From assembly GCF_003675325.1 (NCBI RefSeq), contig NZ_CP033073.1, positions 744,001-808,000 on the forward strand: a DNA stretch of 64,000 bases. The letters run 5' to 3'. Shown piece by piece: positions 3,516 to 56,531 of the stretch. The notes below the pieces were generated by a model, which saw only the letters and a program-made list of their open reading frames with translations, did not search any database and was not told the DNA's origin. How positions within the stretch are numbered: position 1 is the stretch's first letter; each line of letters opens with the position of its first letter. Origin of the DNA: Streptomyces dangxiongensis. GTDB taxonomy: Bacteria; Actinomycetota; Actinomycetes; Streptomycetales; Streptomycetaceae. The position numbers and the translations under genes were made by a program.

Positions 3516-3721
3516 GTATGTCTCCAAAGCGTGGACAAGTGTAGGCGATCCGGTGTTCGAGCTGAGGCTACTGATCGCCCGCCAAAGGAGCGACCTGAAA
3601 CGGAAATTGACCATCCGTTCCCGGTCACTGCCTGCGGCAAGTGCCCAAGTGGTCCCGCTGTGTCACGGCTTGCGGCAGGCGCCGTCACGGCCGTCGCCGT
3701 TGCCGCAACGCACACAAGGGC

Positions 3722-3752
3722 CCGCCCCCTCCGTACGGTGCGGAGGGGGCGG
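3722..3752 (-). terminator. Perfect 12-bp hairpin downstream of the lipoprotein gene
   Basis: CCGCCCCCTCCG and its exact complement are separated by a 7-base loop. The hairpin lies 54 bases past the stop of the minus-strand lipoprotein gene and before the methyltransferase gene. There is no U-tract, which is usual for Streptomyces terminators. Confidence 0.7.
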
Positions 3753-3805
3753 ACCTTCGGTCGTGGCGCCGGGCCGGGCGGGACTATCGACCCTGGGGAG
3801 GTGAT

Positions 3806-39074: not shown

Positions 39075-39158
39075 CGTGCGTGCGGTGGGTGCGTCAGACC
39101 ACCGGTGCCGCGCGGGCGGTGTGGCGGATCGGCACAGCGGCGCCGCGCGCACGGTGGG

Positions 39159-40361
<1,203 letters not shown>

Positions 40362-40588
40362 CTAACTGGCCATGACAAGAAGGAGTTTCGGCCGCCCGGT
40401 CCCGGAGGGTGGCCGGTTACGTCCCCTGCCCGGGTGGACGGGCGGGCCGGTGGATGAGGCGGAAGGCGCCGTCGCCGCGTACACATGCGTGGCGGGTCGC
40501 AAGTGCGCTCGCCGTAGCGGCACGTCAGGATGGGCGAGGGCACGTACTGACGGAGCCGTAGACACGAGGCAACCAGGGAGCAGGCGGT

Positions 40589-42025
40589 ATGAGCACTTCA
40601 GCGCAGATCGGTGTCACGGGCCTGGCGGTCATGGGCCGCAATCTCGCCCGGAACTTCGCGCGCAACGGCTACTCGGTCGCCGTGCACAACCGTACGGTGT
40701 CGCGCACCCGGGCGCTGGTGGAGGAGTTCGGGCACGAGGGCGCCTTCGTCGCGGCCGAGACCGCCAAGGACTTCGTGGCGGCCCTGGAGCGCCCGCGCCG
40801 CCTGGTCGTCATGGTCAAGGCGGGTGAGCCGACGGACGCCGTCATCGAGGAGTTCGCTCCGCTCCTGGAGCCCGGCGACATGATCATCGACGGTGGCAAC
40901 GCGCACTTCGCCGACACCCGCCGCCGGGAGCGGGAGCTGCGCGAGCACGGCATCCACTTCGTCGGCACGGGCATCTCCGGCGGCGAGGAGGGTGCGCTGC
41001 ACGGGCCGAGCATCATGCCCGGCGGGTCGGTGGAGTCGTACGGGTCGCTGGGCCCGATGCTGGAGAAGATCTCCGCGAAGGCCGCCGACGGGGCGCCGTG
41101 CGTGACCCACGTGGGACCGGACGGCGCCGGGCACTTCGTGAAGATGGTGCACAACGGCATCGAGTACGCCGACATGCAGTTGATCGGTGAGGCGTACCAG
41201 CTACTGCGCGACGTCGCCGGGTACTCCCCCGCGCAGATCGCCGACATCTTCCGCACCTGGAACACCGGCCGGCTCGACTCCTACCTGATCGAGATCACCG
41301 CCGAGGTGCTGTCCCACGTGGACGCCGGCGGCAAGCCGTTCGTGGACGTCGTCGTCGACCAGGCCGAACAGAAGGGCACCGGCCGCTGGACCGTGCAGAT
41401 CGCCCTGGACCTGGGTGTGCCGGTGTCGGGCATCGCGGAAGCGGTGTTCGCCCGGTCCCTGTCGGGCCACGCGGCGCTCCGGGAGGCCTCGCGGGGGCTG
41501 GCCGGTCCGAAGCCGACACCCCTCGCCGAATCGGAGGCGGCGGCCTTCGCCGACCGGGTCGAGCAGGCGCTGTACGCGTCCAAGATCGTGTCGTACACGC
41601 AGGGCTTCCACGAGATCGCCGCGGGCAGCGAGGAGTACGGCTGGGACATCGACCTCGGCGAGGTCGCCTCCATCTGGCGCGGCGGCTGCATCATCCGGGC
41701 GGCCTTCCTTGACCGCATCCGCACCGCGTACGACGCCCGGTCCGACCTGCCGAGCCTGCTGTCGGACGAGACGTTCGCACGGGAGATCGCCGCCGCGCAG
41801 GACGACTGGCGCGAGGTGCTCGTCGCGGCGACACGGCAGGGGGTGCCGACGCCGGGGTTCGCGGCGGCGCTGGCCTACTACGACGCCCTGCGCGCCGAAC
41901 GCCTGCCGGCCGCCCTGACCCAGGGCCAGCGCGACTTCTTCGGCGCCCACACGTACCGCCGGGTGGACCGGGAGGGCGCGTTCCACACGCTGTGGGGCGG
42001 GGACCGGTCCGAGGTGCCGGCCTAG
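40589..42025 (+). CDS. gnd: 6-phosphogluconate dehydrogenase, decarboxylating
   Basis: A 478-residue long-form enzyme of the oxidative pentose phosphate pathway that turns 6-phosphogluconate into ribulose 5-phosphate and CO2, making NADPH. The nucleotide-binding start is IGVTGLAVMGRNLARNFARNGYSVAVHNRT. IIDGGNAHFADTRRRERELREHGIHFVGTGISGGEEGALHGPSIMPGG is the signature, with Lys/Asn/Glu active-site groups in GHFVKMVHNGIEYADMQLIGEAY. The C-terminal dimer arm ends with FFGAHTYRRVDREGAFHTLWGGDRSE. Start supported by GGGAG upstream. Confidence 0.96.
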   Translation: MSTSAQIGVTGLAVMGRNLARNFARNGYSVAVHNRTVSRTRALVEEFGHEGAFVAAETAKDFVAALERPRRLVVMVKAGEPTDAVIEEFAPLLEPGDMIIDGGNAHFADTRRRERELREHGIHFVGTGISGGEEGALHGPSIMPGGSVESYGSLGPMLEKISAKAADGAPCVTHVGPDGAGHFVKMVHNGIEYADMQLIGEAYQLLRDVAGYSPAQIADIFRTWNTGRLDSYLIEITAEVLSHVDAGGKPFVDVVVDQAEQKGTGRWTVQIALDLGVPVSGIAEAVFARSLSGHAALREASRGLAGPKPTPLAESEAAAFADRVEQALYASKIVSYTQGFHEIAAGSEEYGWDIDLGEVASIWRGGCIIRAAFLDRIRTAYDARSDLPSLLSDETFAREIAAAQDDWREVLVAATRQGVPTPGFAAALAYYDALRAERLPAALTQGQRDFFGAHTYRRVDREGAFHTLWGGDRSEVPA

Positions 42026-42059
42026 GGGGCCTAGAGGGGCGGCCCAGGGGGCCGGCCCC

Positions 42060-42216
42060 GGGGAGCGCGTCTACGGGGGCCCGGCGCCCACCTTGCCTGG
42101 GTGGTGAACCAGGGGGCGCGTCTGCGGGGTCCGGGTTCGCCTCGCCAGGGCCGTGAACCCGGGGGCGCGGCAGCGGGGGTCCGGCGCCCACCTCGCCTGG
42201 GTGGTGAACCAGGCGG
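42060..42216. repeat. Three tandem units of about 52 bases after gnd
   Basis: The units share GGGGGCGCG...GGGTCCGG...CGCC...GGGTGGTGAACC. The first and third are nearly identical (GCCCACCTTGCCTGGGTGGT against GCCCACCTCGCCTGGGTGGT); the middle one is more diverged and shorter. The 255-base stretch between gnd and the Pro-rich gene holds this array and no gene. Confidence 0.75.
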
Positions 42217-42280
42217 CTCGCCTTGCGGCGGGCCGCTCGGCTCCTCGCGCCCCTGGGGGCGCCCGCGTGTGCTCGTGTCG

Positions 42281-42562
42281 TCAGGTGAGGGGTGGGCCGG
42301 GTTCGGGGTTCGGTACCGGTTCCGGACCCGGCGGGATGGGGGACGGGGCCGGCTCCGGCGGACCCGGCGGTCCCGGGTGCGGCGGAACCGGCGGCGGGGT
42401 CGGGTCGGGGCCCGGCGCGGGCGGTGTCGGTTCCGGACCGGGCCCCGGCGGCACGGGCTGCGGGCTCGGTTCCGGATGCGGGACCGGGCTGGGATACGGA
42501 TCCGGCGGGGTCGGGCCCGGTGTCGGGCCGGGCGGAACCGGGTCGGGGTACGGGTTCGTCAT
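42281..42562 (-). CDS. Short proline-rich protein
   Basis: A 93-residue protein made almost entirely of PDPVPPGPTPGPTPPDP-type sequence, with no signal peptide and no membrane segment. ATG 42562 follows GGAGGA at correct spacing, which supports expression. Similar Pro-rich proteins are scattered in Streptomyces with no known role. The DNA is low-complexity and could instead be a chance open frame, but the ribosome site argues for a gene. Confidence 0.55.
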   Translation of the reverse strand: MTNPYPDPVPPGPTPGPTPPDPYPSPVPHPEPSPQPVPPGPGPEPTPPAPGPDPTPPPVPPHPGPPGPPEPAPSPIPPGPEPVPNPEPGPPLT

Positions 42563-42700
42563 GGGTACTGTCCTCCGGCAGTCACGAAGCGTCGCCTCTG
42601 GACTCCTCCCCCGCCTACCCGACGACCGCCCCGGCACTCACCCGGCGGCAGCACCGAACGGGGCCGGGTGGGTGGCCGGAGCCACACAGACCGGGCCCGC

Positions 42701-43045
42701 TCAGAACCGTCCCGGGTGCGCGCGCAGCCAGTCCTTCGCGGCCGACAGCAGTTCCGGGTCGGCCGGCGGGGCGACGTCGGGGTGACGTTCGGCCCACTTG
42801 ACGACGTAGGGGCACAGCGGGGCCACCGGGACGCCCTCGCGCTCGGCGAGGGCGTACAGCTCGCGGGCGAGTGATCCGGCGATGCCCTTGCCCTCGTGGG
42901 CGGGCTCGACGATGGTGTGGACGGGGACCAGGGCGCGCGCGGGCGACTCCAGGACGAAGTACTCGATGTGGCCGACGACTTCACCGCCGCCGAGGGCCTC
43001 CAGGCGGCCGGCCGCCCGGTCGTCGCGAATCTCGGTGTCACCCAT
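42701..43045 (-). CDS. YjdJ-like GNAT family N-acetyltransferase
   Basis: A 114-residue single-domain protein of the Gcn5-related YjdJ/Yitl subgroup. The features seen are VGHIEYFVLESPARALVPVHTIVEPAHEGKGIAGSLARELY, with the acetyl-CoA loop EGKGIAGSL, and LCPYVVKWAERHPD near the end. Small members bind acetyl-CoA; the acceptor is unknown. ATG 43045 was preferred for the GGAG seven bases upstream. The gene ends 24 bases upstream of panD in the same direction as transcription, so the two may be an operon with panD first. Confidence 0.82.
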   Translation of the reverse strand: MGDTEIRDDRAAGRLEALGGGEVVGHIEYFVLESPARALVPVHTIVEPAHEGKGIAGSLARELYALAEREGVPVAPLCPYVVKWAERHPDVAPPADPELLSAAKDWLRAHPGRF

Positions 43046-43078
43046 GGGCACGCTCCTGGTCCTGGTCCTCGCGGCCGG

Positions 43079-43498
43079 TCAGGCCGGGACGGCCTGGGGG
43101 CTGCGCTGCTGGTCGGAGCCGGGTACCGGCTCCGACGGGTCGGCGCCGAGGGACACGATCCGGTTGCCGGCGTCGACGTGCACGACCCGGGGCCGCAGCT
43201 CGCGTGCTTCGGCGTCGGTGACCTGAGCGTAGCTGATGATGATCACCAGGTCGCCGGGATGGACGAGGTGGGCCGCCGCCCCGTTGATCCCGATGACCCC
43301 GGAACCGCGTTCGCCTTCGATGACGTACGTCTCCAGCCGCGCACCGTTGGCGATGTCGACGATGTGCACCAGCTCACCGGGCAGCAGGTCCGCGGCGTCG
43401 AGGAGATCGGCGTCGATGGTCACCGATCCCACGTAGTGCAGGTCGGCCTGGGTGACGGTGGCGCGGTGGATCTTGGACTTGAACATTGTACGCAACAT
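43079..43498 (-). CDS. panD: Aspartate 1-decarboxylase (pyruvoyl enzyme)
   Basis: A 139-residue enzyme making beta-alanine for pantothenate and coenzyme A. The self-cleavage site Gly24-Ser25 is intact (HYVGSVTID); Ser25 becomes the pyruvoyl group. Lys9 and the [11 protein letters not shown] start are typical, as are [22 protein letters not shown] and [13 protein letters not shown] 43498 puts the cleavage site in the standard position. The C-terminal 15 residues or so are a loose extension. It is the last recognisable core gene before the island to the right. Confidence 0.95.
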
Positions 43499-43863
43499 CG
43501 GGGCACTCCCACAAGTAGGCTCCCTGCCTGCGTTTTTGCAGGTCAAGGGCTGTTTCGACACCCTACAACGAGTCGCATGTTCGGGCAGCTTGCCCTAGAT
43601 TTTTCAGGACTCATGCTGACCACTTGCTGACTTTTCTGACGCGACATCAGGCGACTGCAGGAGGGCTTCGCCTGCTCTCCTATACCCCACCGCGACGACG
43701 GCACAAGCCTACGCAGAGCTACCGAAGGGCGGCCGTGATCGCCGTCACTCAGGCGTTCTGCCCGGCATTCAGGAGCGAAGGCCGTCGACCGGGAGTCGGG
43801 CCACACACCGCCATGGGTTAGCTGGTCCAGGCCCCACTACTCAGCCCCAAAGGAGGAGGCACC
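43499..43863. other. Gene-free region at the left edge of the island
   Basis: GC is lower than in the flanking core genes. I see no ORF with a ribosome site and no tRNA. The panD promoter probably lies at the left end. A possible island attachment site could not be identified. Confidence 0.4.
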
Positions 43864-43884
43864 ATGGGTCATCAAGGAATCTGA
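43864..43884 (+). CDS. Six-codon leader-like ORF with a strong ribosome site
   Basis: AAAGGAGGAGGCACC precedes an ATG that opens a frame of only six codons (MGHQGI). The stop overlaps a GTG (TGAGTG) that opens a 44-codon frame ending at 44019 (starts VAEAARQHSS, contains TTMAIARPVALAGGTGR). The ribosome site is among the best in the window. A leader peptide or translational coupler is possible. Alternatively it is the start of a gene now broken by a nonsense mutation. Confidence 0.35.
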   Translation: MGHQGI

Positions 43885-44019
43885 GTGGCCGAAGCGGCGC
43901 GGCAACATAGCAGCGGATCGCCGTTAGCCAAACCGGCGATTCTCACGACCATGGCTATAGCTCGTCCGGTGGCTCTTGCCGGTGGCACAGGGCGAGTGTC
44001 AACGGCGTTCGGAATGTAG
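43885..44019 (+). other. Possible 44-residue ORF coupled to the leader
   Basis: A GTG overlapping the leader stop (TGAGTG) starts this frame. The product is Ala-rich with one weakly hydrophobic stretch and has no recognised motif. Coding potential is weak. The HTH gene starts 20 bases later. Confidence 0.2.
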
Positions 44020-44039
44020 CCAGAGCAGAGTGCGAGCCG

Positions 44040-44327
44040 ATGCCGCGACCAAGCTCAGGCCAGCTTCAAGGAGCCATCTTGCCCGTGGACCCGCAGTCGC
44101 ACCCCGACGAGACCCGCACCGATATCACGTCGCACCGTAGCGTCGAGCCCGTCCTTATGGACACATCTGAGGTCGCTGCGATGCTCAACATGTCCACGAG
44201 CTGGGTCTACAGGGAGGCATCGAAACTGGGCTTGAAGGGGTACAAACCCGGCCGAGGCAGGAACGCCAAGGTCCTCTACAAGAGGGCCGAGATCTTCAAA
44301 TGGCTGGAGCAGCAGAAGATCCACTAG
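44040..44327 (+). CDS. Excisionase-like helix-turn-helix protein
   Basis: A 95-residue protein. The conserved part begins at about residue 40 (MDTSEVAAMLNMSTSWVYREASKLGLKGYKPGRG) and continues KVLYKRAEIFKWLEQQK, the AlpA/Xis-type winged HTH used by excisionases and small phage regulators. The first 39 residues are variable and the start could lie at codon 40. It is probably an excisionase or regulator left from an integrated element. Its TAG stop lies in a CTAG that the IS5-like element to the right appears to have used as target. Confidence 0.65.
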   Translation: MPRPSSGQLQGAILPVDPQSHPDETRTDITSHRSVEPVLMDTSEVAAMLNMSTSWVYREASKLGLKGYKPGRGRNAKVLYKRAEIFKWLEQQKIH

Positions 44328-45110
44328 GGTCTGTGCCGAGTTGAGATCACGGGTTTGGCTGTTTCGCCGTCCCGGTCGGGTCGGGACGGTAGACAGGCGG
44401 GATGGCCCGAGGCGATCTTACGGACGACGAGTGGACTGTGTTCGAACCGCTGCTGCCGCTGGGCGAGCGCGGTCCCATTCTGACCTGCGCAGGCTCGTCA
44501 ACGGCGTGATATGGCGGTTCCGTACGGGCGGTCCGTGTCGGGACATGCCCGAGCGGTAGGTGCGGTTCCAGCTTTGGGCCGGGCCCGGGATCTTCCAGAC
44601 GCTGATGGAAGCGGTGATTGCCGAGGCCGCCGCGCGCGGTCAGGCAGACCTCGATCTGGTGAGTCCGGACTCCACCGTGGCCCGGGCCCACCACCACGCC
44701 GCCGCCGCCGGGATGAGGGTCGATGCGGAGCTGCTCGAGGCCCTGGAGAAGGCCGTCGCCGAGGAAGGGGCTTCGTCAAAGGGGCATAACGCGCCGGTAG
44801 CCGAGCCGGATGAGCAGGCGGATGCCGCCCGCGAGGAGCGAAGGCGTCTGCGCCGACGTCGCGAGGCCCGGCTCCGCGCCGCCGAACTGGGGCGTTCACT
44901 CGGCGGGTTGTCCGGCAAGGTGCACCTGTCGGCGGACCGCCGTTGCCGCCCGCTGTCCTTCGTCCTCACCGCCGGCCAGTCGGCCGACAGCCCCCGCTTC
45001 ACCGCTGTCCTGGAACGCATCAGGGTCCCGAGCCCGGTCGATCGGCCCCGCACCGTGCTTCCGCCGTGGCCGCGGACAAGGCGTACTCCTCCCGACGTTT
45101 CGTCTTGGCT
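44328..45110 (+). mobile_element. Broken IS5-family transposase, right end missing
   Basis: ATG 44402 begins an IS5-like transposase (MARGDLTDDEWTVFEPLLPL). It breaks after about 35 codons, continues in another frame (RLVNGVIWRFRTGGPCRDMPER, then a stop) and resumes downstream as VRFQLWAGPGIFQTLMEAV, with DLDLVSPDSTVARAHHHAAAAG holding the first DDE Asp, and GGLSGKVHLSADRRCRPLSF holding the second. It decays around 45100 without the final Glu region. The left end abuts the HTH stop. No matching right inverted repeat was found. Confidence 0.75.
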
Positions 45111-45259
45111 GCTGGTTACGGGGCTGGTGGTGTGGGCGGTGGCTGTGGGCTCTTTGCATGTCAGCGCGTTGATCGTTTCGGGGTTATCGTCCGTCACCGC
45201 TGTACTTCGCTGCTCGTCAGGACGAGCAGGGCCCGCAGGAGGGCGGTCACGTGGCAAGG

Positions 45260-45376
45260 ATGACCCAGCCGCATCGTGATGAGGATCCCCTCACGGACGC
45301 TGCTCATGAGGTGCTCGGCATCCTGGGCAATGCTGACTACTCCTTACGGTCGATCTCCTTCAGGTTGGCCTCGTAG
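45260..45376 (+). other. Short ORF at the island junction, possible N-terminal gene remnant
   Basis: ATG 45260 opens a 38-codon frame reading MTQPHRDEDPLTDAAHEVLG, then ILGNADYS, after which it overlaps the end of the convergent helical gene. The beginning looks like a genuine protein start but has no recognised family. It could be a gene cut off by rearrangement. Confidence 0.25.
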
Positions 45377-46257
45377 ACCTCCTCTCCGGCCAGGTCCCCG
45401 CGCTGTCGGCACTCGTGCAGGGCCTTGCGGGTCCATGCCCGGGCCTCGTCGCGGTCGCCCAGGTGGACGTGGTTTAAGCCCATCAGGCCGCAAAGTTTGC
45501 CGAGGAAGCGGCGCGCGGACGATTCCTCGGGGTATGCGTCCAGCTCGTCGAGGAGCCGCAGCAGTGCCCGGTTGCTCTCCGCGAACAGGGCGCGGTCGCT
45601 TAGCTGCTGGGCGTGCGTCAGGGCCTCACGGCAGGCACCCAGCCGGCGTCCGGCTGGCGTGCCGCGCCGCAGTTCGCGGGCCGTGAGTAGGTCGTCGAGG
45701 AAATCAGCGGCTTCTGCCGTGCCGGGCTTCCGCCTACGGCGTGTCAGTTCGTCCACACGGCGGGCGTGCTCGATGGCCGTGTCGAGGTCGTTCCGTATGG
45801 CCGCGTGTATGGCCAGGCGGGAGTGGATGGTCGCCACCCAGACGTCGTCGGCATGCCCCTCGCCGAGTTCTTCGCGGAGCAGTGCGTCGGCGGCCTCGAA
45901 CTCCCCGTCCTCGGCGAGGATCTCCGCCTCGTGGAGCTTCTCCATCGGGTTGCCCGGCTTGTCGGCTCCCGATAGCTGGCGCAGCGCGGCGGGACGGCCC
46001 AACCCGTCCAGCTCGCGCGCAATCCGCTGAGCCGTCAGCATGAAGGGCCGCATGCCGTCCATGTTGATGCGGAAGCTCTCCCGCAGTTCCCGGGGCACGC
46101 TCAGCCATGCGTCCCGGTCGGCGTCGAGTTCGGCGGCGTGCTGTCGGCACAGTGCGCGGAAACCGGCGTGGTCCCCGTCCCGGTCGGCCACGCTGAGGGC
46201 GCACAGCACCCGTCCCAGCTCCCCTTCGACGTACTCCCCCAGATGCGGAACCTTCAC
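45337..46257 (-). CDS. Helical-repeat (TPR-like) protein, partner of the TIR-like protein
   Basis: A 306-residue soluble, almost fully helical protein. Helix pairs such as EKLHEAEILAEDGEFEAADALLREE, VATIHSRLAIHAAIRNDLDTAIEHARRVDEL and LMGLNHVHLGDRDEARAWTRKALHECRQRGDLA fit TPR-like units. The GTG start overlaps the TGA of the TIR-like gene (GTGA), so the two are translationally coupled; a start six codons further upstream is also open. It probably acts as a scaffold or sensor for its partner. I do not recognise a named family. Confidence 0.75.
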   Translation of the reverse strand: MKVPHLGEYVEGELGRVLCALSVADRDGDHAGFRALCRQHAAELDADRDAWLSVPRELRESFRINMDGMRPFMLTAQRIARELDGLGRPAALRQLSGADKPGNPMEKLHEAEILAEDGEFEAADALLREELGEGHADDVWVATIHSRLAIHAAIRNDLDTAIEHARRVDELTRRRRKPGTAEAADFLDDLLTARELRRGTPAGRRLGACREALTHAQQLSDRALFAESNRALLRLLDELDAYPEESSARRFLGKLCGLMGLNHVHLGDRDEARAWTRKALHECRQRGDLAGEEVYEANLKEIDRKE

Positions 46258-48446
46258 CGGACCGAAGCCCCCCACTGCAGCAGATGGCCATACAAGTGCA
46301 TGTACAGCAGCCCGGACGGGTGCTCATAGCCGTCACCCCACCCGGACAGCAGGCCGCTGTGCGGTGCGCCGGGCGCCACGTCGCCGACGACCTGTTCCAC
46401 GTTCTCCTCGGTGTGGTCCAGGGACACGGTGATGGCCGGGAGGCGTGCCTCGTACACCACGCGGCACAAGGCCTGGCCCACGTCGTTCGCAACCAGCCCG
46501 GACTTTCCCACTACCACCCACACGTCGGCCCGGACGGGCTGCGCCCGCAGCCGCCCGTGCGGCAGATGCCCCACGGGGACGGGGTCCACCGCGGTCCAGC
46601 TCCCCGAGACGACCGTGAGCCGCAGCTGCTTCTCCAGCTCCGCCCGATGCCGTCGTACCCATGACGAGATGAGCACGGCTTCCCCCTCGCACTCGGCGAC
46701 GACCGCGACATGGCACGTCTGCCTGGTGCCGGTGGCGTTCAGGTCGGTCAAGCGCCAGTACGGCGTCGCGTCGGGGGACCCTGCGGCCTGTTGCTCCTCG
46801 ATGTAGCCCCGGAGGTTCAGGCCGCCCCACCCGTCGAGGGTGCCGATCACACGGACCGGCCGCCCGCCGTCGACCGGTTGTGACCCCGAGTAGTCCGGCA
46901 TCGGGATCAGGATCTTGCCCTCCCCCGTTTCCGGCAGCGGGACCACCCCCGTGACCAGGGCCTGCCTGCTCATCCGGCCGTTCGGCACCGCGAAGGAGAG
47001 CATGCGGTCGTAGAGGTAGGGAAGGTCGCCCGGCTCCGCCATGGACAGTCCGAGCCGGCGCACGCACTCCTCGCGCGACTGCAGCCGGAACACTTCGGTG
47101 TCCAGCAGTCCGCGCCAGATGACGAGCTGGCGGTCGTTCACCAGGCTGCGCAGCGACTCCGCGTCCGTCGCGGGGCCCGACGGCCGCGCCGGTCCACCGG
47201 TGTGCAGGATGTCCGGGCGCCCGCCCGCCGTGGCCGCCAGCGCGGTCGCTGCCTCCAGGCTGCACCAGGCCCGGCCCAGGTAGTCGGCCACGTCGTCCAG
47301 CAGCACGAGGGTGCGCCCGGCGAACTGCAGCAGGAACAGCGATTTGAGGGTCTTGCGGAACAGCTCCTGTTCCTCGGGGGTGCGGGGAGCCTGTGGCACG
47401 CAGGTGTAGTCGTACCAGATATGGATGTGCTCCAGCAGCGGCCGCAGTGCGGGCAGGGCGTCGAGCAGAGCGCCCAAGCGCTCCAGGCCGATGTCCTCGG
47501 ACGCCTTGGATGCGCCGAGTTCGACCGCGTCCACGCCGACCCGCTCCACATCCTGGGCCACCGGCACCAGTGATGTCTCGTCCAGCACTTCCCGCAGGAC
47601 CCCGACCAGCAGGCACTCCGCCAGGTCCGATCCGGCCACTCCGACCGGCATGTGCATCGCCGCGGGAGCCACTTGGCGAGGGGTGTGCAGTCCACGCCGG
47701 TGGGCGACCCGGACTGCCTCGCACATCGAGGCGACCAGATGCCACGCGACTAGGCGCGCCTGTGTGCCGTCCGGGTCGGGCTGTTCGGCGTTCAGCCAGC
47801 GGTGTGAGACGAACACATGGTGCCGGTCGGGGAAGACACCGTGCACCAGCCGGGACGCCGCCTCGCGCATCCGGGGAAAGCGGGCGTACCCGATGAGTTC
47901 GTCCAGTGGCAGCCAACGCGACTCGGTCAGGTGCGTCCAGACCGACATGGTGGGCTGGGGACGGACGTCCTGCGGCTTGGTGAGCCCGTCCAGCGCGCGG
48001 TGGCGGACTGCCAGGGGAATCCTGCCGACGATCTCGCCCCCCGGTTCGGCCATGGCGTACAGCAGCCCCCGCTCGATGCCGACCCGAAACTGCCCGTCCG
48101 GGAAGGCGAGGCGCCGGTGGACCAGGAAGTCGCGCTGCCCGGCGAGCCGGGCCAGGTCGGCGGGCAGTCCCGCCCGCTGCCGCCGCCGATCTCGCTCCGC
48201 GCGGCCCGCCAGGGTCTCGACGCCGACAAATGGAACCTGTGGGCAGGCGCACAGATAGCGGTACGCGAGCTCGTCGTACGTCCGCTTGCCCCCGCCTCCG
48301 CCTCCGCCCCGGGAATAGGCCAGCGCCTTGGCCGCTGCCTCGCTCGCGCGCCGGGCGTACAGCAGCCGGGGGTGCCTGCGTAGCTTCTGCGGCGGGATCG
48401 ACAACATGGCCTTGATGTCGTCACCTGACGGTTCACTCCGGGACAA
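46254..48446 (-). CDS. Large TIR-like protein of a putative conflict system
   Basis: A 730-residue cytoplasmic protein. A basic N terminus has a run of seven glycines (47-53). The core at about 205-400 shows HHVFVSHRWL (209-218), HIWYDYTCVPQ (342-352) and TLVLLDDVADYLGRAWCSLEAA (379-400), the strand order and WC..E block seen in TIR-like and SHRW-type domains. A further alpha/beta region near the C terminus contains ADVWVVVGKSGLVANDVG. The start is TTG, with GAAGG and GGTGAG upstream. No catalytic Glu of NADase TIRs is certain. Coupled to the TPR-like gene and divergent from the membrane/SLOG pair. Intact and unlike its broken neighbours. Confidence 0.6.
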   Translation of the reverse strand: MSRSEPSGDDIKAMLSIPPQKLRRHPRLLYARRASEAAAKALAYSRGGGGGGGKRTYDELAYRYLCACPQVPFVGVETLAGRAERDRRRQRAGLPADLARLAGQRDFLVHRRLAFPDGQFRVGIERGLLYAMAEPGGEIVGRIPLAVRHRALDGLTKPQDVRPQPTMSVWTHLTESRWLPLDELIGYARFPRMREAASRLVHGVFPDRHHVFVSHRWLNAEQPDPDGTQARLVAWHLVASMCEAVRVAHRRGLHTPRQVAPAAMHMPVGVAGSDLAECLLVGVLREVLDETSLVPVAQDVERVGVDAVELGASKASEDIGLERLGALLDALPALRPLLEHIHIWYDYTCVPQAPRTPEEQELFRKTLKSLFLLQFAGRTLVLLDDVADYLGRAWCSLEAATALAATAGGRPDILHTGGPARPSGPATDAESLRSLVNDRQLVIWRGLLDTEVFRLQSREECVRRLGLSMAEPGDLPYLYDRMLSFAVPNGRMSRQALVTGVVPLPETGEGKILIPMPDYSGSQPVDGGRPVRVIGTLDGWGGLNLRGYIEEQQAAGSPDATPYWRLTDLNATGTRQTCHVAVVAECEGEAVLISSWVRRHRAELEKQLRLTVVSGSWTAVDPVPVGHLPHGRLRAQPVRADVWVVVGKSGLVANDVGQALCRVVYEARLPAITVSLDHTEENVEQVVGDVAPGAPHSGLLSGWGDGYEHPSGLLYMHLYGHLLQWGASVR

Positions 48447-48548
48447 TCAACTCACCTTCTTACAAGGGGTCTTATGCCGACCATGCGATCAAAGCACGTA
48501 TCTTTTCAGCACGGTTGGCGAGCGTGACGACTACGGGGAGACACTGCC

Positions 48549-49064
48549 ATGGCCGAAATCAGTGACTCACTATGGAACGACGGAGTCGGCGCGGAGGACT
48601 ATCGAGACGCGAGGGCCACGTATCACGCCGCGATCTTCGAGCAGTACAGGCTGTGCGTGGAGATGGCCGACCGGGTCAGCGCCCGGCGCAACCTCGCCAA
48701 CACCTTCTTTCTGACCCTCCACACCGCCCTGCTCGCCTTCCTCGGCACCTGGCTGTCCCAGGATCACCACCGCGATTTGCCGGTCGTCCTCGCCCTCGCG
48801 GCCGTGCTGGTCCTGCTGGGCATGTGTGTCACCTGGTGGTTCACTATCCGCTCCTACCACCAGTTGAACCGGGGCAAGTTCGAGGTGATCGGTGCGCTGG
48901 AGGAGCGGCTGCCAGCCCGCACCTTCGTGGCCGCCGAGTGGCATGCTCTCGGCGAGGGCCGGGACTGGCGCGTCTATCTGCCGCTGAACCGGGTTGAGCG
49001 GTGGATCCCCCTTCTCTTCGCCGGTGCCTACATCCTGGGATTCGCCGCCGCCATGGCTCTGTGA
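48549..49064 (+). CDS. SLATT / RipA-like small membrane protein
   Basis: A 171-residue protein with a cytoplasmic N terminus containing a conserved helix (EQYRLCVEMADRVSARRNLANTFF), two close membrane segments (51-69 and 77-100), a cytoplasmic loop (NRGKFEVIGALEERLP, then EWHALGEGRDWRVY) and a third segment at 152-171. It resembles SLATT 2TM effectors and the RipA-type octameric membrane family. In such systems this protein is predicted to open a membrane pore when a SLOG partner senses a nucleotide-derived signal. ATG 48549 follows GGGGAG. The SLOG gene follows at a short gap. Confidence 0.7.
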   Translation: MAEISDSLWNDGVGAEDYRDARATYHAAIFEQYRLCVEMADRVSARRNLANTFFLTLHTALLAFLGTWLSQDHHRDLPVVLALAAVLVLLGMCVTWWFTIRSYHQLNRGKFEVIGALEERLPARTFVAAEWHALGEGRDWRVYLPLNRVERWIPLLFAGAYILGFAAAMAL

Positions 49065-49161
49065 AGCCTGCAGATGGTCCGTACCGCTCGATCGACTCGA
49101 CCGGTGACCGCCACCGGATAGAGTGACGGCCACATCACCCGGGCCGGAAGGGGATTGCCGC

Positions 49162-49653
49162 GTGGTCACGGTCGCCGTCACCGGTCACATGGACCTGGCC
49201 GACGAGGTAGCCGAGGCGGTGCGCACGGCCCTGCATGAACTGCTGGCCGGCCTGCGGGGCGACGCACTCGTGGGGCGTTCCTGCCTGGCCCGCGGCGCTG
49301 ACACCCTTTTCGCCGAGGAAATCCTGGCCCTCGGCGGTCGGCTGTCGGCGATCATCCCGTCCAGGGACTACCGGGACGCGGTAGTGGCCCCGGCAGACCT
49401 CATCAGGTTCGACGCGCTGTGCGAGGCCGCCGACGAGGTGGTGATCATGCCGTACGAGCACGCGGGGCGCGCGGCCTACGAAGCGGCCAACTTCCGCCTT
49501 CTCCAAGGCGCGGACTGGCTGCTGGCCGTCTGGGACGGCAGCGCGCCCACCGGCCGTGGTGGCGGCACGGCTGACACCGTGGCCGCCGCCCGCTCGGCCG
49601 GGCTGACCGTCGACGTTGTATGGCCTCCTGGTGCGCGCAGGTCCGGCGCCTAA
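49162..49653 (+). CDS. SLOG-domain nucleotide-sensing protein
   Basis: A 163-residue Rossmannoid protein. VVTVAVTGHMDL at the N terminus, SCLARGADTLFAEEILALGGRLSAIIPSRDY in the middle and LLAVWDGSAPTGRGGGTADTV near the end fit the SLOG superfamily (LOG, DprA and YpsA-like ligand binders). These are proposed to bind or make nucleotide-derived signals that activate linked effectors. GTG 49162 has GGAAGGGG upstream; an in-frame GTG at 49123 is less well supported. The TAA stop is inside the CTAAG where an IS end begins. Confidence 0.7.
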   Translation: MVTVAVTGHMDLADEVAEAVRTALHELLAGLRGDALVGRSCLARGADTLFAEEILALGGRLSAIIPSRDYRDAVVAPADLIRFDALCEAADEVVIMPYEHAGRAAYEAANFRLLQGADWLLAVWDGSAPTGRGGGTADTVAAARSAGLTVDVVWPPGARRSGA

Positions 49654-49740
49654 GAACTCCTAACGAAATGATCTTCGAGGTGGTTGGATCACTCCGAGAC
49701 CGTTGATCCGGGGGTGTGGGGTGGCTCGGCCGAAGCCGTG
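49651..49740 (+). mobile_element. Solo left end of the IS5-family element found complete at 60.6 kb
   Basis: About 90 bases are identical to 60616-60705, beginning TAAGAACTCCTAACGAAATG and ending within the transposase start (GCTCGGCCGAAGCCGTGG). The rest of the element is absent; recombinase sequence follows at once. It is the scar of a deletion or of recombination between copies. Confidence 0.85.
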
Positions 49741-50160
49741 GCGGCTCACTCCGCGGCAGGTCGACCGGTACTTCGCCGGGCCGGGCAAGCACGGCCGTTC
49801 CACGGTCCGACAGAAGATGAACCAGATCGACCACTACTTCGCGTTCCTCGAACAGCGCTATGCCGGCGAGATCGCCCGCCGGTTCGGGGCGGCCGTTGAG
49901 TCGCCCGTCGCCCCGTTCAACCGCCACAAGCACCGTGGGGACTCGGGCTGCGGGTGCCGCCGTCGCAGCGGGCCGCCCGGGAGTTCTTCGCCCGGTGGCG
50001 CAACTCGCTGGAGGACGCGCGCAAGCCCGTCATCGCCCGTCGCGACTACGTGATGGGCAAGCTCACCTGCATATCCGGCGTGCGGGCCGCCGAGTTGTGC
50101 GGCGTATGCATCGGGGACGTGCACTGGGAGTCCGGACAGTGGGGCCGCTTCCTCGTCAAC
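49741..50160 (+). pseudogene. Tyrosine recombinase remnant (N-terminal domain)
   Basis: The first part reads RLTPRQVDRYFAGPGKHGRS and QKMNQIDHYFAFLEQRYAGEIARRFGAAVESPV, the SAM-like DNA-binding domain of a phage-type integrase. After a frameshift near 49945 it continues RVPPSQRAAREFFARWRNSLEDARKP and YVMGKLTCISGVRAAELCGV, where the catalytic Arg is expected. It then stops matching at about 50160. No catalytic C-terminal half follows. Confidence 0.7.
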
Positions 50161-50672
50161 GGGACCCCACCGACCGGCTCCGCGGTCCGATCGACCGAGC
50201 CGACACCCCGATGGCGAAGCTCGTCGTCGCGCTCGTCGCCATCCACGGCCTCGGCCGACGCGAGACCCGCTGCCTCCTCCTGGCCGATCTCGACCTCGCT
50301 CGCGGCCGTCTGACGGTCCGGCGGGACCTACGGCACACCGTCTACCTCGACGAACTCATTCACATCCTCGCCAGCGACTGGCTGCGCGACCGCCACCAGC
50401 GGTGGCCCCTGACCGCCAACCCCTACCTGCTGGTCAGCCAGCAGACCGTGGCCGACGAGCGGCTCCCGCCCGTCTCCACCATGGTCACGAACGCCATCTT
50501 CCGGCCGCTCGGCCTGAGCCTGTCCAAACTCCGCCAGGACCGCATCCTCGACGAGGCCCGTCAGACCGCCGACCCCGTCCACCTCATGCGCGTCTTCGGC
50601 ATCGCCGCCGAGACCGCGCTGAAGTACATCTACGCCGCCCACCCCGAACGCCGGTCCAACCTCAGGCGATAG
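50161..50672 (+). pseudogene. Second tyrosine recombinase remnant (C-terminal part)
   Basis: A different recombinase type reads PMAKLVVALVAIHGLGRRETRCLLLADLDLARGRLTVRRDLRHTVYLDEL, then LRQDRILDEARQTADPVHLMRVFGIAAETALKYIYAAHPERR. The last block is typical of transposon-type integrase proteins in Streptomyces whose C terminus lacks a normal catalytic Tyr. It follows the other remnant without a proper junction, so a deletion has joined two unrelated genes. Confidence 0.6.
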
Positions 50673-50873
50673 CTATCCGGGCCCCGAAAATCACTACCGC
50701 CCCGTCTGCGAGCCCCCGAAATGGAGGCGCTGCCAGGCCAGCCGTGGCACCCTGCTGCCGCATGCCGTGAGACTATAGAAATCCGTCTGTAGCAGATGCA
50801 TCGCGATCATTCCGAATAGAGCTCGTCACCGCGCCGTTTACCGGAACAGCTCCGCTCCGAAGGGGCGACCGTC

Positions 50874-52377
50874 ATGCCGAACGACATGGATCCCGAAGCC
50901 ACGATTCGTGCCCTCGACGGCGTAGGGGTGGATTTCAGTATTCCGAAGTCCGCTCTCACCGACTTCCTGGGCAACGCCGAGTTCACGCCGTACCCGGCAC
51001 TCTCCGCAGGACTGCTCTCATTGCTCGACGAGCGCATGCTGCAACGCCCTGTCTTCCTCGACGTCATCGTGTTCAACTACGAGCATTCGCCGGGCGATCC
51101 ATCGCCCCGTCGGCTTGAGGACGTGGATTTCGAGGTCCTCAAGGAAGCGATACTCGAAGGGTTCAACAATCGTTACGCGACGGAGCATACCGATTTCGCG
51201 TCACGGCTGAAGCCACAGGACGTACCGCAATCGCCGCCCGTGCAGACGCTCTCACTCGTCGTCGAAGGCACCGTGAACATTCACAACGGGATCACCTTCC
51301 GTCGACACGGACAACCCCCGGGTCGAGTCCCCGACCAAGCTGATCACAGTGCGCTCGGAGTCGGCGAACGCCATGGTGCCGCAGGAACTCATCCGGAAGG
51401 AGAAGACCTGGCACTTCACCAACGGAGACGTCCGGCTCTCCGTCGCCAACGGCGAAGCGGACGCGGGATCGATCCCGCGCCCCGTCCGGGCCGGATCCTT
51501 GAGCGACAGCGCATACGCCTGGCCCGCCACCTCGGGAACGTTCAGTGGCGACGCCGGTTCCGAAGTCAAGCTGCTGTCCCGCATCCGCGTCGGCTACCAC
51601 CCGGTCGACATCAAGCTCCTGGTCGAGGCCCCCAAGGGTTTCGCCGCCAACCCGGTCGAGCAGGCACGCATCGTGCTCGACCCGGAAGTGCTTCTCGTCC
51701 CCGTCGAAGTCGCGCGCTTCTTCTCCGACAGCGTCCCGGTCTCGGAGATCACGGCGGCCGGCCAGATGGCGCTGTGGGACCAGATCCCCGTTATCAGTCC
51801 GACTGTCAACGCCCGAAGCGTGGACGGCGCCTCCGGGGAACTGAGGTTCGCGGAACGCGCATGGGACCTCTGGCCCGAGCCCGACGCCGCGGGCCTCTAC
51901 ACCCATCTCGGCTGGGTCTCACCGGACAGTATCTGGGGCAAGGCGAAAATCAGGTTCCGACTGGTCAATTACATCGACATCAAGACGGACAACCAGCACA
52001 CCGCCCCGGTGACGGGACAGGGCGCGAACGACAGACCGCTTCGGGAGAACAACGACACTTTGTCCAGCCACCCGCAGCACATCTCGGACAAGAGTGTGCT
52101 CAAAGTCATCTTCATGCATCGCATAGAACATCAGGAATCAGCGCACATCGGCCGCGCCCTCATCGGCAGCCAGTGCGTGGGCATATCCGCTGGCGCGTCG
52201 GACAGGTTCGCGACCATCGCCCATGAGATCGGCCACCTGATCACGGATTCCCAGGCGCACAGCACGGAGCAGGACAACGTCCTGAACGACCCGGGACCGG
52301 GGATCCACATCACGAACGAGCAGATCACGAAAGCAAGGGCCTGGGCGCAGAACTTCGCCGACTTCTGGCAGCACTAG
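50874..52377 (+). pseudogene. Zinc metalloprotease-like protein broken by one frameshift
   Basis: ATG 50874, with GAAGGGGCG upstream, opens MPNDMDPEATIRALDGVGVD and reads well to about 51295. There one extra base shifts the frame; coding continues as VDTDNPRVESPTKLITVRSES to a TAG at 52377. The joined product would be about 500 residues. The C-terminal part has RFATIAHEIGHLITDSQAHS, a zincin HExxH at 52221-52235 with Asp/His candidates after it. There is no signal peptide. Family and target are unknown; a toxin-like or processing protease is possible. GC is lower than in core genes. Confidence 0.6.
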
Positions 52378-52435
52378 CAATACAGCATCTGCTGCCGGCC
52401 ACCGGGCCCGGCAGACGCTGTCAGGTCCCGGAGCG

Positions 52436-52591
52436 GACCTCGGGTATCCGCTCCAGCTCGATGCCGAAATCCGGCACCACGAGCACGACCAGACCGACCT
52501 CCCCACAGACGCCGCGATCGACTATCTCTTCGTGCGGCTCGCCTCCCTCATCTCCCTCGTCCTGGGTAGCACCGGCCGCATGACCACGTAA
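52436..52591 (+). pseudogene. C-terminal remnant of an unidentified gene
   Basis: The frame DLGYPLQLDAEIRHHEHDQT, then AAIDYLFVRLASLISLVLG, ends at TAA 52591. It has the composition of real protein and no start. The upstream part is missing. The rest of the 306-base gap between the protease and HAD genes has no feature. Confidence 0.3.
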
Positions 52592-52683
52592 CCGTGCCAC
52601 GTACGCGATGAACCCGGCTGACACCGGCGGCTAAGGCTTGTCCCGCAAACTGCCTGCTCAGGGCCTGATGGCATGATCGAAGC

Positions 52684-53370
52684 GTGATCAGTGAACCCGG
52701 CCGTCCTGGTGCGTTGAGGTTTGTCCTGTTTGATGTTGATGGCACGTTCATCGACGCCGTGGACAATCAGCGCCTGGTTTGGCGAACGTGGGCAGAGCGA
52801 TACGGCCTGGACCCCGATGAGGTCTACCGAGTGGCGCTGCGGACGAGGCCGATGGAGACCTTCGCGCAGGTTGCTCCGGACCAGGACCCCGGGGAGTGCC
52901 TTGCTGCACTGCACGAGCTGGAGGACGAGGACGTCCGCTCCGGCGCCTATACGGCCTTCGGCGGCGCCTCGGAGCTGCTGAGTGCCCTGCAGCCCGGGTC
53001 CTGGGCACTGGTGACTTCAAACTACGAGCACCGGGTACGTGGACGCTTCGCACGGACGGGCTTGCCGGTCCCGGAGGTCCTCGTGGATGCGGCCGCCGTG
53101 GAGGAAGGCAAGCCGTCGCCTGTGCCGTATCTGCAGGCAGCCGCGCGACTTGGTGCCAAACCCGAGGACTGTCTGGTCATCGAGGACGCCCCTTCCGGGG
53201 TGGAGTCCGGGCTGCGTGCCGGGATGACGGTATGGGGTGTCAACGCCCCTACGGCGGTGGACGGCGTGCATCGTCACTTCGGCAGCCTCCGCGAAGCGGT
53301 CCGCGACGTCCTTGCCTTCGTGTCCGGACCCCGCCCTCACGGGCTGGAGGGATCAGCCGCGATGGAATGA
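52684..53370 (+). CDS. HAD-superfamily hydrolase (phosphatase-like)
   Basis: A 228-residue HAD enzyme. Motif I is LFDVDGT (nucleophile Asp17, acid Asp19), motif II the Ser/Thr in ALVTSN, motif III Lys in EEGKPSPVPY, and motif IV CLVIEDAPSGVESGLRAGM. A helical cap lies between motifs I and II, as in beta-phosphoglucomutase or phosphoglycolate phosphatase types. It probably removes phosphate from a small metabolite such as a sugar phosphate. GTG start at 52684. It is one of the few intact metabolic genes inside the island. Confidence 0.87.
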   Translation: MISEPGRPGALRFVLFDVDGTFIDAVDNQRLVWRTWAERYGLDPDEVYRVALRTRPMETFAQVAPDQDPGECLAALHELEDEDVRSGAYTAFGGASELLSALQPGSWALVTSNYEHRVRGRFARTGLPVPEVLVDAAAVEEGKPSPVPYLQAAARLGAKPEDCLVIEDAPSGVESGLRAGMTVWGVNAPTAVDGVHRHFGSLREAVRDVLAFVSGPRPHGLEGSAAME

Positions 53371-53377
53371 TCTTGAT

Positions 53378-53611
53378 GTGGCTGGTGTGATCACGGCATC
53401 GGAGCCGTCTTGGACAGTCCCGTTCACCGGGCTGAGCCCGCGCACCTTCGGGAAGCTGGTGACCGTGCTGCGGCGCAAGGGTGCGGCCGCGGTCCGCAGG
53501 GGCAGGCCCTGGAGCCTTCCGCTGGAGGACCGGGCTCTGCTGGTCGCGGCGTACTGGCGCACGAACTTGTCCACTGGGTTCCGTGTCCGGAGTCTCTCCG
53601 AGGCCAGGTGA
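53378..53611 (+). pseudogene. Transposase N-terminal remnant
   Basis: The frame VITASEPSWTVPFTGLSPRTFGKLVTVLRRKGAAAV, then RPWSLPLEDRALLVAAYWRTNL, is the N terminus of the HTH/DDE endonuclease type of transposase (IS5-like). It diverges after about 60 residues and the stop overlaps the following recombinase frame. Only the DNA-binding part remains. Confidence 0.65.
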
Positions 53612-55235
53612 AGCTGCCGGCCTGGAAGATGATCAACGGGCATCTGCGGGACCGAGGTGTTCGAGCACTGACCCGGACGTCGGCCCCGGACATGCGGCAC
53701 ACCTGCGGCGGGTGGATCCGGCTGGCACGCTGGCTGGACCAGCGCGGCATCACCGACCTCGCCGAATGCACCGAGGAAATGTGGCGGCAGTATCCGGCCG
53801 AACGCTGGAGAGAGGGTGTCGGCCGGGACCGCGCGGAGAAGGTCCTGGGATCGCTGACGGATCTGTGGGCGTTCGACCAGCTCTGCGCCCAGCCCGCCGG
53901 CATCGCGCGGCCTCCCTGGGACGTCGAGGGCATCGACGACTTCCTTCCAGCCGCGGAGGGAACAACGGGCCGGGAGAACGCGACGGAGCCGCTGGACCCG
54001 CAGGTTCTCGGTCCGCTGCTGGTCTGGGCCATCCGGTTCGTCGATGACTTCGCCGACGACATCCTCGCTGCCTGGGCCGAGCACCGTCGTCTCACCGACG
54101 TGGCTGCCGCCAACCCCAGCACGCCTGCGGGCACCGCCGCGCTTGCCGCCCTCATAGCCGGGGACGCCGATGTCCCGCGGCGGTCGAGATCAACGGGAAC
54201 ATCAAGATGGCCCGCACCTTCATCGCCGCCACCACCGGTGCGAGCCTGCGCCAGGTCGACTACGCGAACCGACTGCACGAACTGGCCGACCGGGCAGCCC
54301 GGCAGCCGGCACCGTGTCCGATGGACGTGCCAGTCACCGGCCGGATCGACGGCAAGCCCTGGCGCGAACACATGGACTTCACCGAGGCCCTGCCCCTGAT
54401 GCGGCATCTGGGCACCGCCGCCATGATCATCATTCTTTATCTCACGGGCATGCGCCCCCAGGAGGCCCAGTGCCTGCGATCCGGGTGCTGCCCCGACCCG
54501 GAAACCGATGCGGACGACAGCCCGGGACGGCATCTGATACGCAGCCACCACTACAAGAACGTCACCGACGACGACGGCCACCACGTGTCGGCCGGCGCGG
54601 AACGTGAGGTCCCGTGGGTCGCCATCACGCCGGTCGTCCATGCCATCCGGGTCTTGGAAAGGTTCGTCCCCGAGGGAGAGTTCCTGTTCAGCGCGGCCCG
54701 ACACGACTTCCTCTACCGACGCGATCTTCCCGGCGTGCTGAACGGTGGCACGCTGAACGAGCGAATCGAGGACTTCGTGGACTGGGTGAACCACAAGGCC
54801 GTGGTACAGGGACGCCCGAACAGACAGTCCCCCAGGACCCGCATTGCGCGATCGGGGTCTCACGCTTCAGACGGACCCTCGCCTGGCACATCGCCCGCCG
54901 GCCCGGCGGGCTGATCGCGCTGGCCATCCAATACGGGCACATGCGCACCGTCCTGGACGCCCGCACCTCAAGCGGCTATGCCTCACGGAGTCGCCACGGC
55001 GTCCACGGCGTCCTCATCGCCACCGGAGAGAAGATCTCGGGCCCCGCAGCCAGCAGGGCACTGGCCGCCGCGGCCACAACCCCGCGCTTCGAGGGCCGCA
55101 TCGTCCCCAGAACATTCGCGAAGAAGGCCGCCAAGTTCCTCGCCCGGGACGGCGTCGTGCTCTATGACACCCCGGATGCGTTCCTGATCTGCGCGTTCAA
55201 GTACGACAACGCACTCTGCGAACCCGATCCAGGCG
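53608..55235 (+). pseudogene. Tyrosine recombinase, at least two frameshifts, 3' end cut off
   Basis: A large integrase remnant. It starts VKLPAWKMINGHLRDRGVRALTRTSAPDMRHTCGGWIRLARWLDQRG. It changes frame near 54180, continuing EINGNIKMARTFIAATTGASLRQVDY and IIILYLTGMRPQEAQCL, where the catalytic Arg is. It changes frame again near 54830, continuing FRRTLAWHIARRPGGLIALAIQYGHMR, the HxxR-containing box. The C-terminal segment (DGVVLYDTPDAFLICAFKYDNALCEPD) stops at the end of the convergent secreted-protein gene. Not functional. Confidence 0.75.
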
Positions 55236-55240
55236 CGACG

Positions 55241-55558
55241 TCAGAGCAGCTTCTGCGGTGCCTGGTACTGGTCGACGGGTGCGATGTTGCACGCGGTGTT
55301 GGGCCCGCCGAGTCCATGCCCCCCGATGCCCTCACCCTCCGGTAGCGGCACCAGGCAGCGGCCGTCGATGTTGATCAGCGGAGCGCCATAGGTGTTGAGG
55401 ATGCCGCCTGCGTCGCCCGTGACGGCGGTGTTGCTGTTGCGGGTTCCGAAGTCCGTGGCGCCGTTGCCGGCTCCGAAGTCCGTCGCCGATGCGGGTACAG
55501 CGACGGCCGTCGTTGCGGCAATCGCGAAAGCTGCGACGGCCAGAACCTTCAAGATCAC
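55241..55558 (-). CDS. Small secreted protein of unknown function
   Basis: A 105-residue protein. The signal peptide VILKVLAVAAFAIAATTAVAV ends near PASA, followed by two TDFG units (TDFGAGNGATDFGTRNSN) and a conserved-looking core LNTYGAPLINIDGRCLVPLP and GGHGLGGPNTACNIAPVDQY with two cysteines that could pair. GTG 55558 was preferred because AAAGGGAG lies just upstream; an ATG ten codons earlier is open but lacks a site. It is neither a chaplin nor a rodlin by sequence. It interrupts the end of the recombinase remnant. Confidence 0.65.
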   Translation of the reverse strand: MILKVLAVAAFAIAATTAVAVPASATDFGAGNGATDFGTRNSNTAVTGDAGGILNTYGAPLINIDGRCLVPLPEGEGIGGHGLGGPNTACNIAPVDQYQAPQKLL

Positions 55559-55644
55559 TGTGATGCTCCCTTTAGATGAGACGGTCATCTTCTTCGTACT
55601 CCGTCCAACGCCACGCTGTGGTTGCAGTTACTGACTTCGGCTCG

Positions 55645-56531
55645 TCAGGGTGACGTTGGGGCGTCGAGGGTCAAGCCGGTGCCGGCTATGAAGCCGTCGA
55701 GGGTGTCGGGCCGGTATTGCAGGCGCTTGGGCCGATTGCGGACGAGGGCTTCGAGCCGGTCGAGGGCAACGACGGCGAGGTTGGCCAGGCTGCGTTTGAC
55801 GTGGGCCCAGACCCACTCGACGGGGTTGAGGTCGGGCGAGTAGGCGGGCAGCAGGAACACCGTGAGCCATTCACGCTCGGTGATCAGCTCGCGTATCGCG
55901 TGGGATACGTGGGTGTTCAGGCGGTCCCAGACCAGCACGATCGGCGCCTTGACGAGCTGGTGGATGCCGTCGATCAGTGCGATGAAGTCGCGTGCGCCCA
56001 TGCTGCGGCGTTTGCCCTTGCCCGCGGGGTGGGTGCGCAGGCGGTGGCACAGCCTGGTGCGGGAGCCGGGCCGCATGGCGATCAGTCCGGCCACCGACAG
56101 GCGTCCCGAGCGTCGCCCGCTCACCGTCACCTGCGGAGTCACTCCGCGTCGGCCCCAGGTACGTCCCTTGGGCGGCCGCCGGATGAAGCCTGCCTCGTCC
56201 TCGAAGCAGATGTAGCCCCCGCAGGCCGCCCGGGTTCTTCTACCTCGTCCCAGATCACCTCCTTTCACGTGGTGACGGCCTGCTCGTCGCGCTCGGCGAC
56301 CCGCCGTGCGGGGACCTGCGGGCTGAAGCCGAGCCGGTGCATCAGCCTTGTCGCCCCGGAGACGCTGTAGGAGACGTGGAACTTCCTGCCGATCAGCGTG
56401 GCCACCCTCGCCGCCGTCCACACCTGGTCCTCCACCCAGCCGTGCGCGGCCGGGCCCTGCTCCAAATACGCCGCTTCTATGGATAACGGACTGCCCCAGC
56501 TACCCTCCAACGGCCCGCGATCTGGCAGCAA
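55645..56531 (-). pseudogene. IS630-family transposase, nonsense and frameshift mutations
   Basis: The N-terminal part (AAHGWVEDQVWTAARVATLIGRKFHVSYSVSGATRLMHRLGFSPQ) ends at a TGA where family members have Trp (VTT-stop). The catalytic part continues in another frame with GGYICFEDEAGF (first Asp), PIVLVWDRLNTHVSHAI (second Asp) and LLPAYSPDLNPVEWVWAHVKR (Glu). At least two lesions separate them. The 5' end is also truncated near 56490. One IS630 copy, now inactive. Confidence 0.8.

Follow-up and report, generated by a model that had tools for sequence, protein, structure and literature searches.

Thoeris defence systems have TIR proteins that make signals derived from nicotinamide adenine dinucleotide (NAD), and these are answered by effectors that carry SLOG (with SIR2) or macro (with a transmembrane part), as described in PMC11204291. 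SLATT proteins are predicted to be nucleotide-responsive pores, and TIR-SLATT neighbourhoods have been published by the Aravind group (PMC7159879 and PMC9503650); a kinship of fungal HET domains with TIR is stated in PMC4986451. Here we describe four genes in a stretch of 64,000 nucleotides of Streptomyces dangxiongensis (contig NZ_CP033073.1, positions 744,001 to 808,000, from an assembly of 8.16 Mb in two contigs), which is called the window in the following. They are named B, A, C, and D in the order of their positions, are co-inherited as a cassette of two modules, A-B and C-D, and may encode a Thoeris-like signalling system. Coordinates are those of the window:

45337..46275, minus strand: gene B, TPR-like protein, 312 amino acids (aa) as open frame, about 306 aa with a start at 46257 (open frame; TPR_2 below cut-off, relatives above TPR cut-offs)
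46254..48446, minus strand: gene A, 730 aa, predicted TIR-like core and Rossmann-type C-terminal part (open frame; AlphaFold2; profile)
48447..48548, no strand: divergent A-C intergenic region, 102 base pairs (bp)
48549..49064, plus strand: gene C, RipA-family, putatively octameric membrane protein (Pfam 8xMP, PF24838), 171 aa (Pfam)
49123..49653, plus strand: gene D, probable SLOG-fold protein (YpsA/DprA-like; open frame, likely start at about 49162, 163 aa)
45337..49653, no strand: four-gene cassette B-A-C-D, one conserved block in the related loci L005, L006, and L007 (blastn)

The cassette resembles Thoeris in that a TIR-type gene is combined with a SLOG-type sensor, as in the first class, or with a membrane effector, as in the second. 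Unlike in Thoeris, separate genes encode the SLOG and the membrane protein, there is an additional TPR gene, and the TIR-like core has diverged and carries a large insertion. No SIR2 or macro domain (ThsA) was detected by Pfam in the four cassette proteins, PADLOC gave no match to them, and NCBIfam matches were all below the cut-off, i.e. the Thoeris gene set was not found. The likeness to SLOG-SLATT and TIR-SLATT loci is that a small protein with several transmembrane segments adjoins a TIR or SLOG gene; however, C belongs to the 8xMP/RipA family, has three hydrophobic segments, and has no detectable similarity to SLATT_1. Among the papers listed by searches of open-licence literature, none describes the 8xMP/RipA family as a TIR partner or names this four-gene set.

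With positions 38000-56000 of the window as query, blastn yielded a single match of 4.4-4.5 kb to L005 (94% identity) and to L006 (90%), and a match in two pieces to L007 (77% and 81%). All three matches stop at position 49651, the first base of the stop codon of D, and their left starts range from 9 bases inside the end of B to 190 bases past it. No further match was obtained in these three loci, L005 extending only about 330 bases past B; the stretch L068, from the same contig as L005, yielded one distant piece of 123 bp. In addition, A, C, and D are found on same-sized contigs, which we read as a shared contig, in S. rameus, NPDC091289, and NPDC057302, with consecutive locus tags in the first two. 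The three cassette relatives have no internal stop within the compared stretches, and the ratio of nonsynonymous to synonymous changes (dN/dS) is 0.20-0.54 in 23 of the 24 gene comparisons, the outlier being D of the window versus L005 (1.17, on few changes). The genes are therefore more than chance frames, in line with an earlier note on this DNA that described four intact genes in a divergent 4.3-kb block, and they are under purifying selection. The synonymous distances to L007 are similar for all four genes (0.33-0.38).

The core of A spans roughly residues 205-490 and is interrupted by a large insertion (about 252-340); the Rossmann-type part lies at about 572-690. The motifs quoted in the earlier note are present in the sequence, and S214, H215, R216, W217, W344, Y345, D346, C349, P351, Q352, W394, C395, and E398 are invariant in all 30 aligned A proteins. 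In an AlphaFold2 model the strand-helix order of the TIR fold is present around the motifs, and the closest structural neighbours of the core are plant TIRs, at low Z scores of 3.1-3.7. A compact six-row profile of the core matched TIR_2 (E 0.0075 over 19 columns) and ThsB (E 0.0058 over 85 columns), in both cases beating 100 of 100 shuffles, and matched other sets at E 0.55-0.82. The profile that retained the large insertion reached E 0.33 and thus gave no support for TIR. Pfam TIR families were found neither in A of the window (E up to 5) nor in the 30 A proteins (E up to 1), and no Pfam family of any kind matched A of the window at E up to 5. Both the AlphaFold2 model and the profile of the compact core support the prediction of a divergent TIR-like core on which Pfam is silent, in agreement with the TIR-like pattern noticed before.

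Blocks of the types W-x-D-x-x-C-x-x-Q and R-x-W-x-x-x-E in A presumably resemble motifs of the fungal HET domain, a TIR-related death domain, but the relatives of A stay below the HET cut-off. HET (PF06985) was found in none of the 30 A proteins and in neither of two other compact relatives, and the core of L020 gave a weak match (16.5 bits versus a cut-off of 22.5, E 0.011).

A scan for loci yielded 16, 13 of the A family (L005-L017) and three that contain the core only. B adjoins A in 12 of the 13 A-family loci, the exception being L009, where the contig is short and A incomplete. B of the window reaches 21.4 bits with TPR_2, under the Pfam cut-off of 27; two of seven scanned relatives (L010 and L017) are above a TPR cut-off, four are below, and that of L016 has no match at E up to 0.01. 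These matches support a TPR-like protein, in line with the helical-repeat protein proposed earlier. The GTGA overlap that was said to couple A and B is present if B starts at 46257, with its GTG (46257-46255) overlapping the TGA stop of A (46256-46254).

Gene C matches 8xMP over nearly the whole model (1.1e-43; 148.8 bits versus a cut-off of 30; model positions 1-134 of 136), so the RipA half of the earlier assignment, SLATT/RipA type, was borne out. The SLATT half was not supported: Pfam SLATT families gave no match to C of the window at E up to 5, and hhalign of C against 24 stretches of SLATT_1, the SLATT family compared by profile, gave E 0.73. C has three hydrophobic segments, six 8xMP relatives have two to four, and the single SLATT_1 example has two, close together. 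An octameric state is presumed from the family name, and C may play the same role of a small oligomeric membrane effector that has been proposed for SLATT.

The homologues of D point to a start near 49162. For D of the window, Pfam yielded nothing at E up to 5; in its set of 32 members weak matches were obtained to YpsA (10 members, best 0.0057), DprA (7, 0.03), YAcAr (3, 0.00021), and Nuc_deoxyrib_tr (2), and unrelated models also surface, e.g. Phage_depo_C in 7 members. From the weak matches of some relatives, D is probably a YpsA/DprA-like SLOG protein, which would agree with the SLOG fold proposed before.

8xMP genes are also found next to TIR genes outside Streptomyces. A plasmid search with C matched 12 records, five of which were opened; one holds a Streptomyces C-D pair, and the Polaromonas and Paenarthrobacter plasmids were picked since the match table already listed a TIR gene. 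A ThsB_TIR gene above the cut-off overlaps the 8xMP gene by 1 bp in Polaromonas, downstream of type I restriction genes, and by 4 bp both in Paenarthrobacter, with a TIR-caspase pair close by, and in Synechococcus. The 8xMP locus of a Leptolyngbya plasmid has a weak TIR_2 match only (0.0026). In a survey of 150 genomes of Pseudomonadota (the phylum of Chromatiales), all 14 stretches with 8xMP matches over the cut-off were opened, and three contain a co-directional TIR neighbour, i.e. L167 (TIR_2, 1.6e-22), L171 (ThsB_TIR, 8.9e-12), and L168 (TIR_2, 2e-5, just below the cut-off); for the other 11, a visual check and a pair of small TIR profiles were used on the neighbours instead of Pfam. Thus, 8xMP lies beside TIR in six of the 18 opened non-Streptomyces loci, two of the 18 having been preselected for an annotated TIR:

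L077 5612-6552; L078 5615-6492; L080 5576-6504; L167 3901-5315; L168 4001-5503; L171 3974-4817: pairs of a TIR and an 8xMP gene that overlap or almost do

The pairs are distributed over Pseudomonadota, Actinomycetota, and Cyanobacteriota, and are possibly a general system of a TIR protein and a membrane octamer. Because 41 genomes of the Streptomyces order have 134 TIR_2 matches, about 3 per genome, chance adjacency would be expected to be rare, although this density comes from another phylum. In the Paenarthrobacter stretch (L078) a ThsB-like TIR gene (custom profile) followed by a Peptidase_C14 caspase gene occupies 2532-3894, and some 1.7 kb separate it from the TIR-8xMP pair.

Two further neighbourhoods contain relatives of A or of its core. 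In Pedococcus (L016, 2188-10840) genes for patatin, LSDAT_prok SLOG, TPR-S, TIR_2, and prok_STING precede A and B on one strand. In Calothrix (L018, 1937-4292) a protein with the SHRW core is accompanied by a 153-aa membrane protein on the opposite strand and by a ThsB_TIR gene. The 153-aa protein has no match to 8xMP or another Pfam family, though it shares the three-segment layout of C.

We tentatively read the cassette as Thoeris-like signalling, at a probability of about 45%; we infer the chemistry, the order of events, and the role in defence. B would hold or trigger A, and A, via the TIR-like site with the invariant E398, would make a nucleotide signal, for which NAD is the most likely substrate. 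D would bind or trim this signal and would then let C make the inner membrane leaky or depolarised, and the infected cell would cease growth or die before phages are released. The logic would be that of Thoeris, except that sensor (SLOG) and effector are separate proteins and that a membrane octamer replaces SIR2. This reading is favoured because the block recurs with an exact right end, the core of A is TIR-like, TIR-8xMP pairs exist elsewhere, and the Pedococcus TIR/STING row and the Thoeris precedent (PMC11204291) point the same way. In a wider sense, 8xMP/RipA octamers might be widespread, hitherto unrecognised membrane effectors gated by TIR signals; the cassette would then be an elaborate form in which a SLOG receptor encoded on its own links the nucleotide signal of a bacterial TIR/HET-like enzyme, accompanied by a TPR regulator, to the octamer, a further Thoeris-like architecture. 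This generalisation is possible, and we hold it with less confidence than the mechanism of the cassette.

The strongest rival is that two independent modules travel together, A-B being a complete TIR-like/TPR system and C-D a complete SLOG/octamer system, without functional coupling. C-D lies beside A in only three of the 13 A-family loci (L005-L007). L008, whose A is 77% identical, has no C-D, and A-B without C-D is also found in the eight remoter loci L010-L017. In the genus, A matches 6 of 392 genomes and C 53 of 392. A close intact A is present in three of them, i.e. the genome of the window, G310, and G348, with C 102-106 bp away in all three (gaps of 102, 106, and 103 bp); the remaining A matches are distant (G205), degraded (G009), or weak and partial (G054). 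Among 20 fetched genus stretches, a selection and not every C site, C occurs without A in 16, and D is next to C in 13 of the 16 (in L066 one gene lies between); L071-L073 have C with neither A nor D alongside. On a tree of C, three changes are required to explain the cassette label, two of them forced, and the standalone C of L056 nests within the cassette group. C-D is thus more often alone than with A-B, and because each module occurs alone, the two are separable and recombining and not one obligate unit. The expectation that the arms would be joined elsewhere was confirmed in six other Streptomyces strains and is qualified by these solitary arms. Against independence stand the exact block and the shared divergent gap, which persist in three loci although the DNA identity falls to 77%, and the recurrence of TIR-8xMP pairs. 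We regard independent modules as a less probable, though serious, explanation, and the putative functional link between A-B and C-D, advanced as an inference in the earlier note, is strengthened by the TIR-8xMP gene pairs in three phyla.

Some loci with a single arm have additional genes. Standalone C-D in L054, L055, and L057 is immediately preceded by two co-directional genes, the nearer of which encodes a DUF4328 protein in L057. In the Catellatospora A-B loci L013 (10585-12534) and L015 (10700-12532) a similar protein of 610-649 aa follows, for which Pfam gave nothing in L015 at E up to 0.01. The degraded copy in G009 (L070, 8509-9640; also L002 and L004) consists of fragments of A and B only.

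It is distinctly less probable that A itself kills by NAD depletion, as in TIR-STING, with B as its restraint and C-D as an accessory or a separate module for safety or envelope stress. A-B is alone in most A-family loci, and NAD-depleting TIR domains are in print (PMC13142454), but the recurrent TIR-8xMP pairs and the cassette itself would be left unexplained. Very unlikely is a role outside defence, with C-D as a chromosomal module that serves the envelope or the development of streptomycetes and beside which A-B was recruited as a regulator: C-D is scattered across Streptomyces genomes, some copies with a DUF4328 gene upstream, and C has its matches in 53 of the 392 genomes, but the presence is patchy, plasmids carry TIR pairings, in one case next to type I restriction genes, and the Pedococcus neighbourhood contains TIR, STING, and patatin.

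Around the cassette, the GC content in 2-kb steps is 0.70-0.77 before 44 kb and 0.66-0.71 thereafter, and scans of the window for tRNAs and Rfam families gave no match. Five of ten scanned flanking frames are above a Pfam cut-off (HTH_17, HAD_2, DDE_3, AAA_22, and Abhydrolase_1), several with a nearly whole domain, which tempers the earlier remark that almost all other genes of the island are broken. The HTH_17 protein (44040-44327) lies to the left of the block, and the DDE_3 transposase-type frame (55645-56421) to the right.

New are the 8xMP genes beside TIR genes outside Streptomyces, and A-B in Pedococcus following a row of patatin, SLOG, TPR-S, TIR, and STING genes. 8xMP proteins, for which the literature searched reports no TIR-related role, turn up repeatedly beside TIR genes, in three phyla. 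Gene A would add a rare bacterial TIR-like branch with motifs reminiscent of fungal HET death domains, and the cassette offers a compact, clonable system for asking whether a TIR-made signal gates a small membrane octamer via a separate SLOG sensor.

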